Positions 36,137 to 41,691 of a stretch of DNA of 64,000 nucleotides are shown here, piece by piece (the first letter of the stretch is position 1; every line of letters starts with the position of its first letter). The position numbers and the translations under genes are program-made. The notes under the pieces are model-generated. The model was not told the origin of the DNA and ran no database searches. It saw only the letters and a list, made by a program, of their open reading frames with translations. Origin of the DNA: an uncultured Acidimicrobiaceae bacterium (GTDB lineage Bacteria; Actinomycetota; Acidimicrobiia; Acidimicrobiales; RAAP-2); contig CAIQOJ010000124.1 of NCBI GenBank assembly GCA_903873395.1, positions 1 to 64,000 of the forward strand. Reading direction: 5' to 3'.

Positions 36137-37165
36137 GTGAGACCTATTCCCGTCGCCTTCCACATCTGGTTCCTTGAGGTCCATACCTACGGGATCGGCC
36201 TGGCCCTGACCTTCTGGTTCGGACTTCGCTACACCGAGCGCAGGCTCCGTAACGCGGGCTACCCGTGGGACTGGGTGACGGGCATGTTCGTCTGGGTGGT
36301 GGTGTCAGCCATCGCAGGCGCCCGTCTCCTCCACGTTCTTTCCCACCCCTCGTACTACTTGGCGCATCCGAGCCAGGTGGCCGCCATCTGGCAGGGTGGC
36401 CTCTCCTCGTTCGGGGGGTTGCTCCTTGCCGTGCCCGTGGCCATCATCAGCTCGCGTCGACGTTGTCCCCAGCTGGCAACCCTCCGTTTTGGCGATCTCC
36501 TGGCTCCCGTGCTCATGGCGTGCTGGGGCATGGGCCGACTGCTGGGCCCCCAGCTCATGGTGAATGGCGGGGGCCATCCGACGAACCAATGGTTCGGCAT
36601 GTACTACGCCGGCAATCATCCCGACGTGAAGGTCCTTCCCGTGCCGTTGTTCCAAGCAGCAGAGGACTTCGCCATCTTCGGCATCCTCCTTCTGGTCGAA
36701 CGATGGCTGCGCAGCGTCGGGCCTGAAGGGTGGGCCACAACACCGGCTGCTGACACCAGCCTCACGGACCGCGCACTTCCTCCTGCTGGCATCGTCCTCA
36801 GCATCGGCATGATCCTCTGGGGCATCGAGCGGTCCCTGGACGAGCATCTGTGGCTGGGTGAGGACGGTCACCTCGGTTCGTTGTTGGTCCAGATCGCCGG
36901 CCTCTCGCTCTCGGTGGCCGGCATCATTCTCCTGGCCACCCGAGTCGGAGCGTTCCAGCGGTGGCGGGTCGGTGGTGCATCGTCGATGAGAGAGCGTCCG
37001 TCCACCGAGTTGACCAACCCCTCGGGCGACGTCGACCTAGGCCGTGACGTCAACGCCGAGCCAGAACGCATCCCTGAAGGCAGCCATCATGATGACGTAC
37101 GCCCGTCGCCGGACCTGGACCCAGCCACGCCCGGTAGCGGAGGCTCACCGCTACCCGACGACTGA
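36137..37165 (+). CDS. lgt: Prolipoprotein diacylglyceryl transferase-like membrane protein
   Basis: VHTYGIGLALTFWFGL..., GARLLHVLSHPSYY, IWQGGLSSFGGLLLA, WGMGRLLGPQLMVNGGGHPTNQWFGMYY; GTG start. Confidence 0.85.
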   Translation: MRPIPVAFHIWFLEVHTYGIGLALTFWFGLRYTERRLRNAGYPWDWVTGMFVWVVVSAIAGARLLHVLSHPSYYLAHPSQVAAIWQGGLSSFGGLLLAVPVAIISSRRRCPQLATLRFGDLLAPVLMACWGMGRLLGPQLMVNGGGHPTNQWFGMYYAGNHPDVKVLPVPLFQAAEDFAIFGILLLVERWLRSVGPEGWATTPAADTSLTDRALPPAGIVLSIGMILWGIERSLDEHLWLGEDGHLGSLLVQIAGLSLSVAGIILLATRVGAFQRWRVGGASSMRERPSTELTNPSGDVDLGRDVNAEPERIPEGSHHDDVRPSPDLDPATPGSGGSPLPDD

Positions 37166-38029
37166 CACCCGATCTGCAGACCGGTCGGCCATCGCTGCAT
37201 CGGCACCGAGGTCCTCGGCTTGCCCTCCCGATGCCGTCGGCACAGCACAGACATCACGGTCGGACTCAGCCGGCCAGGCCACACGCAGGATGCCGGTGAC
37301 CACGGCCACGCCGACCACCACCGCCGAACCGATGACCAGCCCGCCAGTAATCCCAGCCAGGACTACCCAGATGGCTACGGATGACGCCGTCAGGACGGCG
37401 ATGACCAGACGGTGGGCCCAGATCCCGGCGGCGGCAAACCTACGGTGGAAGGCCAGCAGCGCCCCAGGGTCCTCGAGCCTGGCTGTCAGCAGCACGGCCA
37501 GACCACGGATCACGCCGAACCACCCACCGACGGCCAAGGCGACCGGGGGGTTGCCCGTCAGGCCGGCCAGAACAACCAAGAGGTAGACAGACGCGGTGGT
37601 GATGTAGGTGGCCAGACCGCATCCGATCTGCCAGCCGAATCCGGCGCCATAGACCCAGGGCCGGTAGGCGTCGAGCCACCGCTCGTTGACCTGTCGCCGG
37701 TGGAAGGGGAGGCGATGGCGAGCCAGACCGGCATCAGATACCAGGGCGACCAGGATGGCCGTCAGCGCCGCCATGCCGACCACGGTCGCCGACAAGCCCA
37801 GGGAACGGACCCCTACGGCAGCCAGGGCGGCCACACCACCCAAGGTGAGTCCGCCGACCACGGCCCCGCTGATGAACCAGGCCGCCGTCACCCCATAGCG
37901 ATGGCCTTTGCCTCGTTCGCTGAAGGGCGTGATGGTTGACAGCATCGAGAGCCCACACGGGGACCAGGTCGACCGGATGGCCGCGGCCAGGGCGACCGCC
38001 AAGGTAACGATGATGAGGGTGGTGGTCAT
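37151..38029 (-). CDS. Polytopic membrane protein, CcdA/DsbD-like candidate
   Basis: RSTWSPCGLSMLSTITPFSERGKG (SPC in TM1) and GFGWQIGCGLATYITTASVY (second membrane Cys); multiple TM helices. Confidence 0.7.
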   Translation of the reverse strand: MTTTLIIVTLAVALAAAIRSTWSPCGLSMLSTITPFSERGKGHRYGVTAAWFISGAVVGGLTLGGVAALAAVGVRSLGLSATVVGMAALTAILVALVSDAGLARHRLPFHRRQVNERWLDAYRPWVYGAGFGWQIGCGLATYITTASVYLLVVLAGLTGNPPVALAVGGWFGVIRGLAVLLTARLEDPGALLAFHRRFAAAGIWAHRLVIAVLTASSVAIWVVLAGITGGLVIGSAVVVGVAVVTGILRVAWPAESDRDVCAVPTASGGQAEDLGADAAMADRSADRVSVVG

Positions 38030-38113
38030 GGTGCTCCTCGATGCAGGGGAGTTGGGGCGCAGAGAGAGCGCTCGGAATCGTGTTGGCGATGGCGGTGGGT
38101 CCGATCGACCATT

Positions 38114-39529
38114 TCAGACAGGGCTCCCCAGGAAGGGGGCGTCGAAGGCGAAGATCCCGCCATCAGAGGCCACACACCAGTAGCCACCGGTGGCTGTGTC
38201 GCCAGCCAGCCCCACCATCGGCCGGGCCAGGTGCTGGCCACCCATCGAGCCGTAGAAGGCGGCGTCACCGAAGGCGAAGATCCCGCCGTCGGCGGCCACG
38301 AACCAGTAGCCCTTGCCCGATGAGGTGGCCGCCATGCCCACGATGGGCTCGTTGAGGTGCTGGCCACCCATCGAGCCGTAGAAGGCGGCGTCACCGAAGG
38401 CGAAGATCCCGCCGTCGGCGGCACACAGCCAGTAGCCCTTGCCCGACCGGGTGGCCGCCATGCCCACGATGGGCTGGTTCAGGTGCTGGCCACCCATCGA
38501 GCCGTAGAAGGCGGCGTCACCGAAGGCGAAGATCCCGCCGTCGGAGGCCACGAACCAGTAGCCCTTGCCCGACGGGGTGGCCGCCATGCCCACGATGGGC
38601 TGGTTGAGGTGCTGGCCGCCCATCGAGCCGTAGAAGACAGCGTCACCAAAGGTGAAGATTCCGCCGTCGGCGGCACACAGCCAGTAGCCCTTGCCCGAGG
38701 GAGTGGCCGCAATGCCCACGATGGGCTGGTTGAGGTGGGTGGTGGCCAGGTCCCCGACGGCCGGGAACGTCCCATACGAGAACACCTTCCCGAACGAGGT
38801 GACCATGCCGTAGCCGCCGGCTGTCGTGACCGCAGCCAGACTGCGCACCTTGCACTCGGTGATGGGAGCGTTACACGGCGGCGGAGGTGGTGGTGGCGGT
38901 GCGGGAATGGCCGGGGTCCAGCACGGCTCGTTGTGCTCGGCGGTGTGGTTGTCCTTGGCCAACGTGGTGGTGCACGACGGATCCACCGTCCACGGCGGCA
39001 CGCAGGCCACTACCCGGCAGACAATGCGGCCGATGCAGGAGATCTGCTGGTTGCACTGGCCGTAGCGAAACTGGAAACAGCCCGTCACCCACGAGTTGCA
39101 CCCTTGAGGCCCACACCCGCACGTGGTCCCGTCACAGCCGGGTTCGCAGAATCCCCACCCGCCCCCACAGCCGGTGGTGCACCCACACGTGGCGTGGCAG
39201 TCCATGTAGTAGCGGGGTCCGCCGCAGTAGCTCGAGTTGTCCGCCTTCCACCAGCCACCCATGACCGTGTCGGCCGGGCAGTAGTTGTATCCACCGTTGA
39301 TCGAACAGCAGAACTCCGACCAGCCCGCACAACACGTCGTACCGCAGCCGCACGCGCTCGACCCACAGGTGCATACGTACCCGTAGGCCGTGCCCGGACG
39401 CAGCAGGAGGTCGAGGCCCGATCCCACCGTGACTGCACTGCCGGCCAGAGCCGAGCGGTTGATGAAACTGCGCCGCGACACTCGGGCCGCCAGGAAGGTC
39501 GAGGCCCGCTCGACCAGTGCCGTACTCAT
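38114..39529 (-). CDS. Tat-type secreted Cys-rich protein (amine-dehydrogenase-light-chain-like pattern) fused to 42-aa propeller-like repeats
   Basis: [22 protein letters not shown] (Tat-like); I count 28 Cys before the Pro-rich linker and repeats end at about CKVRS; five repeats GYW(L/F/C)(C/V)A(S/A)[35 protein letters not shown]. Confidence 0.85.
   Translation of the reverse strand: [471 protein letters not shown]
38231..38734. repeat. 126-bp in-frame tandem repeats x4 (42 aa each), with divergent flanking units
   Basis: gtgctggcc... recurs at 38231, 38357, 38483 and 38609, with a divergent continuation at 38735; exact 126-bp spacing. Confidence 0.95.
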
Positions 39530-40080
39530 GCCTCACCCCCACGGGTGATGCCGAGTCGCATCCGGATGGCGCCGACCTCGGCCAGCGAGGACAGGGCCAG
39601 GTAGGTCAGATACGCACACAGCCCGCCGAGCAGGGCGAGAGGCACCCCGTGCCAGGGCTGGTGGCTCAGGAGGCTCCCGAGGGAACTGGCCGGCACCTGG
39701 AAGGCCACTACGCCAGCCGATGCAGCCAGCACCAGGTTGATGACGACATGGAGGCGGGTGGCTGGGGTGTCGGGACGACTGAAGCACCCACAGCTGGCCA
39801 AGGGACCGCCGCGGACCAGCACGACGGTGACAAATCCGGAGAACGCGACATACGAGAGCGCCACCAGGCCGGCCGTGATCGGACCAGGGCGAACCAACGC
39901 GACGGCACCAATCACCGCTTCAATCGCAGCGCCCGTCCGCACCAGAGGCCGAAGGACGGCTACGGGAAGAGGAACGGTCTCGGCCAACCCCCGAGCCGTG
40001 TCGGCCGGGCGCCAGGTCTTGGCCGCTCCAGCGGCCACCAACAAGAGGCACGCCGCCAGGTAGATCCCGGTCATCGCCAT
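39526..40080 (-). CDS. MauE/DoxX-like redox-associated membrane protein
   Basis: Four-TM pattern; VLVRGGPLASCGCFSRPDTPATRLHVVINLVLAA (CxCF typical of MauE-like proteins). Confidence 0.82.
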   Translation of the reverse strand: MAMTGIYLAACLLLVAAGAAKTWRPADTARGLAETVPLPVAVLRPLVRTGAAIEAVIGAVALVRPGPITAGLVALSYVAFSGFVTVVLVRGGPLASCGCFSRPDTPATRLHVVINLVLAASAGVVAFQVPASSLGSLLSHQPWHGVPLALLGGLCAYLTYLALSSLAEVGAIRMRLGITRGGEA

Positions 40081-40117
40081 GAGACGACTCCCCTCTCTCG
40101 TGCCAAGGTAGTTGAGC

Positions 40118-40606
40118 TCAGTTCCATCCGGGACCTGCAGGTGCTGGCTGAACGGACACCTCGACGGCGAGCTGGGCCAAGAGGCGGTTGACCACCGACA
40201 CCAGCGCCCGTCTGCGGGCGTAACTGCCCAGGACGATGTAGAGAGTGAACGGCCGGCCGTTTTCGGTGAAGAACCACTGCGTGCCAGCCTGGCCCTTCAA
40301 GCCCCTGCGAAGGACATGAGGGGCAAAGTGCTCGGGACTCAGTTCCTTGGGTATGCCCTCATGAGCAAACAGCGGCGTACCCAGACTTTCCGGCCCGTAC
40401 TCGAAAAGGACGGCAAAGATGTCGGTGTCACGCATCAGCGTCACGGCCCCGCCACCGAAGTCCCCCACCTCGGTGGGCAGAGCGAATGTGGCGAAGTGGG
40501 CAACAGCGTGGGAGCGCTCGGGTCCCTCCGCGTTGTGGCGAAAGATGCGGCCTTCGAATCCCGTGGGCAGATGGGCTCGGATCCCGTGGGCCCGGAGTTG
40601 GGCCAC
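40118..40606 (-). CDS. Conserved hypothetical protein in mau-like cluster
   Basis: 162 aa; 3-bp gap to upstream thioredoxin gene, same strand as cluster. Confidence 0.72.
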   Translation of the reverse strand: MAQLRAHGIRAHLPTGFEGRIFRHNAEGPERSHAVAHFATFALPTEVGDFGGGAVTLMRDTDIFAVLFEYGPESLGTPLFAHEGIPKELSPEHFAPHVLRRGLKGQAGTQWFFTENGRPFTLYIVLGSYARRRALVSVVNRLLAQLAVEVSVQPAPAGPGWN

Positions 40607-40609
40607 CGG

Positions 40610-41458
40610 TCAGCTGGCCTGTCCGAGCCCGGTGCGGCTCAGCGGCATGCGGGCATCGGGTGGGCCGTAGAGGTCCTCGAGCGAGGTGGGATACAAGCTG
40701 GGATCACCCGGAAGGATGCCGGCCTGGCGCAGGACGCTGTCGTTGTCGGACTCCCGTTCGGGTCCATCCATGGCCACCGTCCGATCGGCTCGGGTGCCGG
40801 CGCCAAACGCGGTGGCGTCGATGTCGGCCCGTCGCACCAATTCGGCGACCTGGTCGAAGTGGTTGGCCACGCCCTCGCCGATACGGCGCCCGGCATCACC
40901 ATCGATCAGGACGAAGAACGGTGACCCGGGAACCTCGTAGTCGGTCCAGGCGTCACTGGACATGACCACCGAGAGACCGGGTCCAGCCAGTGCGGCTACC
41001 TCGCCGGGGATCTCCCGATCTGGTCCCTTGGTGACCACCACTAATCGAGCGCCCATCGGCAGACCCAGGTCGGCCGGGCGTCGGAACGCGTCCCAGAACC
41101 CGGCGCACGAGGCACAGCCAGTCGACAAGAAGGCCAGCAGGGTGAACCCTGAGGAACCGGCCGGGCTCACGGCCAGGGCATCGCCTGTCGGAGTGACCCC
41201 TGCGATCGCTGGTGCCGAGGAAGCATCCCGATCAGGAGGAAGTGGGGGCCCCATCGTGAAAGTCACCGGTGCCGGACGAGACCCAGCCCCATGGACACCA
41301 GCGTGCCCCTGGTGTCCAGATCCATCGAGGGGGTCACCTACACCGGCACCGAGGTCGTGCAGCGCCTTGAGGATGTCCGCATGGCTGCGGAGCAACCCGG
41401 CCACCAGAACGGCCAATAGGGCAACCACGGCCCCCAACACCACACAAACTGCCACCAT
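40610..41458 (-). CDS. Membrane-anchored thioredoxin-fold protein (MauD/TlpA-like)
   Basis: N-terminal TM; FTLLAFLSTGCASCAGFWDAF (CxxC) and VPGSPFFVLIDGDAG (cis-Pro); AGGAGG SD directly before MVAVCVV supports this start over 41491. Confidence 0.83.
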   Translation of the reverse strand: MVAVCVVLGAVVALLAVLVAGLLRSHADILKALHDLGAGVGDPLDGSGHQGHAGVHGAGSRPAPVTFTMGPPLPPDRDASSAPAIAGVTPTGDALAVSPAGSSGFTLLAFLSTGCASCAGFWDAFRRPADLGLPMGARLVVVTKGPDREIPGEVAALAGPGLSVVMSSDAWTDYEVPGSPFFVLIDGDAGRRIGEGVANHFDQVAELVRRADIDATAFGAGTRADRTVAMDGPERESDNDSVLRQAGILPGDPSLYPTSLEDLYGPPDARMPLSRTGLGQAS

Positions 41459-41691
41459 CTTCGACCTCCTGGCCCCAAGGACGACGAGCACCGCCGAACC
41501 TGACTTGTTGGCTACTGTAGAGATCAGACCTCAGCGAACGGTGGCAATCGCGGCCCCAAGGGCAAACTATTTTTCCCGCCCTTCGGCCCTGGTCGGGCAA
41601 GGGGCACCCCAGTACGCTTCGGCCACTACTCACGGCCGGACCTGAGCGGCGGGACCGCTATGGCCGGATCGAAGCCGATGCGGAGGTACCC

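Follow-up and report, generated by a model that had tools for sequence, protein, structure and literature searches.

To our knowledge, the only characterised role of MauF, MauE and MauD is to assist methylamine dehydrogenase and its relatives, and the chemistry behind it is unsettled. Homologues of these three helpers are encoded, together with a cysteine-rich protein and a protein of 162 residues (U162), by five genes on the minus strand (41458-37151) of a 64,000-nucleotide stretch of DNA, here called the window, from an uncultured Acidimicrobiaceae bacterium (GCA_903873395.1, contig CAIQOJ010000124.1, positions 1 to 64,000). For methylamine metabolism, MauE and MauD are described as essential, and it was proposed that MauE helps to form the disulfides of MauA, the light chain of the dehydrogenase (van der Palen, 1997, as cited in PMC7794033). 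In Streptomyces, mauE and mauD homologues lie beside Cys-rich precursors in candidate families of ribosomally synthesised and post-translationally modified peptides (RiPPs) that were found with decRiPPter (PMC7794033). The five genes in the window are a kit, common to many soil and freshwater actinobacteria, that probably knits disulfides into an exported, Cys-packed surface protein.

The sequence-only reading had described the cassette as five tightly spaced genes on one strand, and the open reading frames (ORFs), their coordinates and an ATGA overlap were all found as it gave them. It had further named conservation of the neighbourhood in related genomes as a check, and the neighbourhood is conserved. 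Among 296 genomes sampled from the class, 63, spread over many families, encode the N-terminal 204 residues of the Cys-rich protein, and homologues occurred in 32 of 396 genomes of the phylum, other classes included. In GTDB 235 stretches were matched, the best 80 of which were nearly all titled as Acidimicrobiia/Acidimicrobiales or Actinomycetes metagenome-assembled genomes, and a search of plasmid and phage collections with the Cys-rich domain gave no match. Profiles of the five genes were run on 100-odd loci, 65 of which were well flanked (at least 4.5 kb on each side of the Cys-rich gene). The genes for the thioredoxin, U162, MauE and the Cys-rich protein stood together in 64 of these 65 loci, and all five genes in 54. 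A MauF-like gene was present in each of the 14 cassette genomes that were searched whole, in eight of them away from the locus. The gene order varied, the commonest arrangements being MauE-LC-Trx-MauF-U162, Trx-U162-MauE-LC-MauF and Trx-MauF-U162-MauE-LC (LC, Cys-rich gene; Trx, thioredoxin gene). That the order is shuffled while the membership is preserved argues for a single function, and the conservation across the phylum excludes chance: the five genes are a genuine conserved unit in Acidimicrobiia and other classes of the phylum. A survey of neighbours, in which ORF picking favoured long antisense frames in the GC-rich DNA, revealed no sixth widely recurrent gene. Loci in which the cassette is split into divergent parts, with MauF, MauE or three genes on the opposite strand, were also seen (L096, L099, L049, L036, L119 and L120).

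To identify the helpers, profiles of the actinobacterial copies were searched against a database of 1865 ORFs that included the mau cluster of Paracoccus denitrificans. The profile of the thioredoxin (40610..41458) matched MauD at 6e-10. The protein has an N-terminal transmembrane (TM) segment, and its CxxC motif (41116-41105 in the window) was invariant in 21 sequences including P. denitrificans MauD, in line with the membrane-anchored CxxC thioredoxin predicted earlier. The NCBIfam model for MauD, TIGR02661, was matched at E<=0.1 by 8 of 21 thioredoxin members, MauD itself among them, and was not matched by the window copy. The third gene (39526..40080) encodes a member of the MauE family PF07291 (E=4.8e-15, 56.4 bits against a cut-off of 27), as anticipated; it was the only one of the five proteins that a Pfam scan identified outright. 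Its profile reached P. denitrificans MauE at 2e-11 and the CxC is invariant in the alignment (CGC at 39792-39784). The fifth gene (37151..38029) had been read as encoding a CcdA-like protein with one Cys in TM1 (SPC) and another in a later TM segment (IGC). Its profile matched P. denitrificans MauF at E=7e-18, and the MauF-like proteins share with MauF the motif STWSPCG, the Cys of which (codon TGT at 37957-37955) is the sole conserved one, present in 92 of 92 aligned sequences including MauF; the next-best Cys columns were filled in 7-9 of the 92. This indicates that the protein is a MauF homologue. The SPC Cys of the earlier description is therefore invariant and the IGC Cys is not conserved. 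A CcdA/DsbD transporter carries two redox Cys, in TM1 and TM4, and that identity was rejected because only the Cys of TM1 is conserved. Six of the 24 aligned members, among them perhaps MauF itself, gave weak matches to the DsbD_2 family (best E 2e-5). The MauF-like proteins matched no curated MauF model in Pfam or NCBIfam, and a profile search of the PDB with their alignment returned nothing meaningful.

In the relatives most MauF-like ORFs start right after a stop codon (RSTWSP-TGA-GESMLSSIHPLGER). At 54 of 54 such loci the codon of the SPC Cys is TGA, never TAA or TAG, and the membrane segment upstream of it is conserved in the same reading frame (L035, L037-L039, L041, L157-L166, L168-L170 and L172 are among these loci). 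Cys occupies the same codon at 31 loci (TGC 22, TGT 9) and in the window copy. The machinery for selenocysteine (Sec) was examined in 35 cassette genomes. All 24 TGA-type genomes contain tRNA-Sec (56 bits or more) and SelA over the cut-off, and SelB exceeded its cut-off in 21 of the 24. All nine genomes without the machinery, the window genome among them, encode Cys; SelA is absent from these nine and their tRNA-Sec scores of 40-49 bits do not stand out from those of other tRNAs. The genomes G285 and G066 possess the machinery, yet their MauF-like proteins have Cys. The association of TGA with Sec machinery gave a Fisher p of about 8e-7, with relatedness ignored. At G087:C12:193959-204000 the cassette has selA and a SelB-like ORF as neighbours, no more than a few kb away, and tRNA-Sec beside it as well; at G374:C1:1777798-1780449 selA is similarly close. 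Two tandem bSECIS-like hairpins follow the TGA on its 3' side in 51 of 51 distinct Sec sequences versus 5 of 30 Cys sequences, the rate upon synonymous resampling being 21%. The loop of the second hairpin begins with G (mostly GG), and compensatory changes were seen in base pairs (GC/CG/TA and CG/TA). When all Sec sequences were folded together in RNAalifold, the mixture of two register variants hid the second hairpin, which was resolved once these had been separated. Minimum free energy z-scores alone were modest (-1.1 versus -0.1). The MauF-like membrane enzyme thus appears to use selenocysteine in most lineages. In a FastTree phylogeny the Cys forms are one clade nested within the Sec forms, so that the Cys form in the window is most simply explained by a single Sec-to-Cys replacement. 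A 2026 table of 119 prokaryotic selenoprotein families (PMC13188914) has no entry for a MauF- or CcdA-like family of this kind, NCBIfam, which is rich in selenoprotein models, contained none that matched the Sec forms, and a literature search on MauF selenoproteins returned unrelated items only. This suggests that the MauF-like protein of the relatives is a probable new selenoprotein.

The Cys-rich protein (38114..39529, 471 aa) had been taken for a Tat-type protein (Tat, twin-arginine translocation) that resembles the light chain of an amine dehydrogenase. The first part of this description agrees with a leader whose RR motif is 99% conserved among 144 sequences; NCBIfam gave a sub-threshold Tat signal for the window copy. 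The light-chain likeness was not recovered with PF02975, which matched neither the window protein and 28 relatives (29 members) nor anything in the window genome, and exceeded its cut-off in 0 of 396 phylum genomes; what was obtained is a weak profile-profile signal. In hhalign the leader matched that of MauA (95.5%). The mature part scored 20.7 against a MauA set that included two Thermomicrobium sequences, a value reached by 0 of 100 column shuffles, and 18.0 against proteobacterial MauA/AauA alone, reached by 6 of 100. The alignable core consists of CPxGT...W and Y..DC. From this similarity and its context the domain may be a distant relative of MauA, not a member of Me-amine-dh_L. Within the conserved domain (residues 50-204; 38918..39382) W93 and W94 (39253-39248), D110, FRYG and 10-plus Cys are invariant in the 144 sequences. 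The number of Cys is even in 127 of 144 domains, with a mode of 26, such counts being inflated by relatedness. Cys75 and Cys203 are both present in 140 domains and both missing in four, as expected of a disulfide pair. The cofactor tryptophan tryptophylquinone (TTQ) involves a second Trp, for which the 144 sequences have no conserved equivalent (W180 is found in 90%). From the 12-residue spacing C159-C171 as compared with MauA C109-C121, its position seems to be taken by the near-invariant Gln158; this is our own reading of the alignment and not a computed one. Neither MauB (PF06433) nor MauG (PF03150) was matched in the window genome, which is 94% complete; the PF03150 search was positive in controls and the PF06433 search nowhere, so that the absence of MauB is the weaker result. 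Within the limits of these searches this extends to the whole genome the observation that no mauB or mauG was visible at the locus. Identity as a TTQ amine dehydrogenase was rejected, since the second Trp is missing and these searches gave no match to MauB or MauG, and the Cys-rich protein is probably not an amine dehydrogenase.

Only residues ~50-204 of the 471 form the Cys-rich part. The C-terminal half is an array of about 42-aa repeats (38143..38737; Tandem Repeats Finder, 126-bp unit, 4.7 copies) with the unit GYWxxAxDGGIFxFGDAxFYGSMGGQHLNxP. Beyond residue ~205 the sequences of different lineages are unrelated: in the relatives DWNGDG/FG-GAP-like repeats, GSLDxV..GWAxDPD repeats or nothing at all are found, and the modules recognised include LGFP (E 1e-36), cell-wall-binding 2 (CWB2; 2.8e-45) and SLH (1.6e-17). 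Versions that stand alone are still over 200 aa long. The combination of a constant N-terminal core with interchangeable outer modules suggests that the Cys-rich protein is a surface platform.

U162 (40118..40606) is specific to the cassette. In the sample of 296 genomes it occurred in 62 of the 63 that carry the Cys-rich gene and elsewhere in four, with two weak and two partial matches. No Pfam family was found for it, and by eye no signal peptide or TM segment was seen; it seems to be cytosolic. Its structure model has a predicted local distance difference test score (pLDDT) of 92. Foldseek against the PDB returned MucB, EagT6, Tsi3, LpqN, PA94 and PsbP as top matches (best E=2e-3, none below 0.001), mostly of the PsbP/DUF1795 type, with several independent members of the fold group and low TM-scores. 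The fold may accordingly be PsbP/Mog1/DUF1795-like, and from these weak matches a chaperone-like role in the cytosol can be guessed.

With respect to the layout, the thioredoxin and U162 genes are separated by 3 nt, U162 and MauE by 37 nt, and the Cys-rich and MauF-like genes by 84 nt; the MauE and Cys-rich genes share the ATGA at 39529-39526. On alignment grounds 41458 is preferred over a GTG at 41491 as the likely start of the thioredoxin. ARAGORN reported a tRNA-Gly(ccc) on the plus strand (40717-40804), antisense inside the thioredoxin gene, which is probably a false positive. An Lgt-like prolipoprotein diacylglyceryl transferase (36137-37165, plus strand) converges on the cassette; its conservation beside the cassette was not shown.

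We consider it likely that the cassette is a dedicated oxidative-folding (disulfide-maturation) line for a Tat-exported surface protein and not an amine dehydrogenase. Of the disulfide or cofactor maturation line postulated by the sequence-only reading, the maturation of an exported Cys-rich protein would thus be retained and the TTQ-type cofactor, for want of a second invariant Trp, given up. The Cys-rich protein would be made with its Tat leader, with U162 as a chaperone or quality-control partner, and then exported. Outside the membrane the MauD-like thioredoxin would make or shuffle the disulfides, about 13 in a typical domain, while MauE, through its CxC, and the MauF-like protein, through its one Cys or Sec next to TM1, would connect MauD with the membrane or cytosol as electron carriers; the single Sec or Cys of MauF would be joined to MauD or MauE in a mixed (selenyl)sulfide. 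No TTQ cofactor would be made, and the finished disulfide core would serve as a rigid N-terminal platform to which exchangeable surface or wall-binding modules are attached. What we infer here is which way electrons flow, how the disulfides are paired, the chaperone role and the surface role. The co-localisation (54/65 and 64/65), the MauF-like gene in all 14 genomes searched whole, the homology to MauD, MauE and MauF, the even number of Cys, the joint presence or loss of Cys75 and Cys203, the Tat leader, the wall modules, the lack of another widely recurrent neighbour and the Streptomyces precedent all support this folding line. Several points weigh against it. Tat normally exports folded proteins, whereas the disulfides would form outside. 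The model of the Cys-rich domain has a pLDDT of 65 and Foldseek found no PDB fold match for it, nor did PDB profile searches return anything meaningful; the chaperone role of U162 comes from weak fold matches; the biochemistry of the cassette is deduced from sequence; and the Cys-rich protein could be an enzyme of another kind.

Such an enzyme might be a reduced amine-dehydrogenase-like protein whose maturation depends on the Mau homologues and which carries a protein-derived quinone or crosslink of a novel kind, W93-W94 being one candidate site. The presence of homologues of MauD, MauE and MauF, the MauA-like Tat leader and the invariance of W93-W94 and of a D110-C111 motif (compare D76-C77 of MauA) in the 144 sequences are consistent with this. 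It is nevertheless improbable, as Gln158 replaces the second Trp in our reading of the alignment, the genome has no match to the MauB or MauG families and the C-terminus varies freely between wall-binding modules. We also doubt that the domain binds a metal (Zn, Cu, Hg or Fe-S) and that the task of the cassette is to prevent oxidation of its thiols in the envelope. The very high Cys content and the resemblance of MauF to CcdA-type reductant transporters (the DsbD_2 match, in a set that includes MauF itself) would fit this, but Cys pairs are gained and lost jointly and their totals are even, no regular metal motif was seen, and the precedent of MauA is one of disulfides. Maturation of a ribosomally made natural product, as was suggested for the Streptomyces mauE/mauD clusters in which a Cys-rich precursor adjoins MauE and MauD (PMC7794033), is very unlikely: the survey of neighbours showed no recurrent protease, transporter or other tailoring gene, and what is made is a complete protein that has a Tat leader and extensive repeat domains and exceeds 200 aa even when standing alone. 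Finally, it can hardly be that the TGA of the relatives is a true stop, with the upstream piece belonging to a pseudogene or to a separate start and not being translated with the rest. Translation with table 11 does end there, the window copy has Cys, and so do G285 and G066 in spite of their Sec machinery. However, both flanks are conserved across the 54 loci and the codon is always TGA, tRNA-Sec and SelA track it (24/24 versus 0/9), and the hairpins are found in 51/51 sequences with compensatory changes.

Taken as a whole, we incline to the view that this is an envelope disulfide-maturation system, not described before and common across Actinomycetota, that has a substrate platform family and a soluble partner (U162) of its own and whose ancestral membrane oxidoreductase is a selenoprotein MauF. 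If true, this would be a new selenoprotein family and a Sec-driven folding line dedicated to surface proteins; if confirmed, a phylum of which the surface biology is poorly known would gain a family of polytopic selenoproteins in the membrane and a folding pathway coupled to export. The cassettes provide many natural cases of these helpers accompanying a non-TTQ Cys-rich substrate, separating the disulfide role from cofactor synthesis, and the occurrence of both Sec and Cys at the one conserved Cys position of MauF marks this residue as the probable catalytic redox centre.

In comparison with known systems, CcdA and DsbD resemble the MauF-like protein in being small polytopic membrane proteins with a Cys after TM1, but they have two conserved Cys where the MauF-like protein has a single one, or a Sec in its place. 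Known prokaryotic selenoproteins (PMC13188914) likewise use Sec for a redox Cys, occur as Sec/Cys orthologue pairs and have a stem-loop 3' of the UGA. The decRiPPter families (PMC7794033) have mauE and mauD, without further mau genes, next to a precursor that contains at least 8 Cys; they are short predicted peptides found computationally, whereas the cassette has a large modular Tat protein, MauF and U162. On the Thermomicrobium roseum plasmid NC_011961 MauA-like proteins, MauE, a thioredoxin and a MauF-like protein occur together as in the cassette, with the difference that the two Trp are kept and propeller-like proteins are present. That region (L131, 473850-490068) encodes divergent MauA-like proteins, one of them unannotated, a MauE fused to a propeller-like domain and several propeller-like proteins; it is probably closer to a real TTQ system, possibly an unusual TTQ-type system of Thermomicrobia. 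With mauFEDA of Paracoccus denitrificans the cassette shares the MauF, MauE and MauD homologues, a Tat-exported Cys-rich protein and the motifs STWSPCG, CxC and CxxC. It differs in that its locus lacks mauB, mauG, mauJ and the remaining mau genes, its target has no second TTQ Trp but does have fused surface modules, U162 is added, the order is shuffled and most lineages probably have the MauF-like protein as a selenoprotein. The cassette is probably a new form of the mau maturation module in which the substrate family and one partner gene are new as well; in the relatives a new selenoprotein is probable too.

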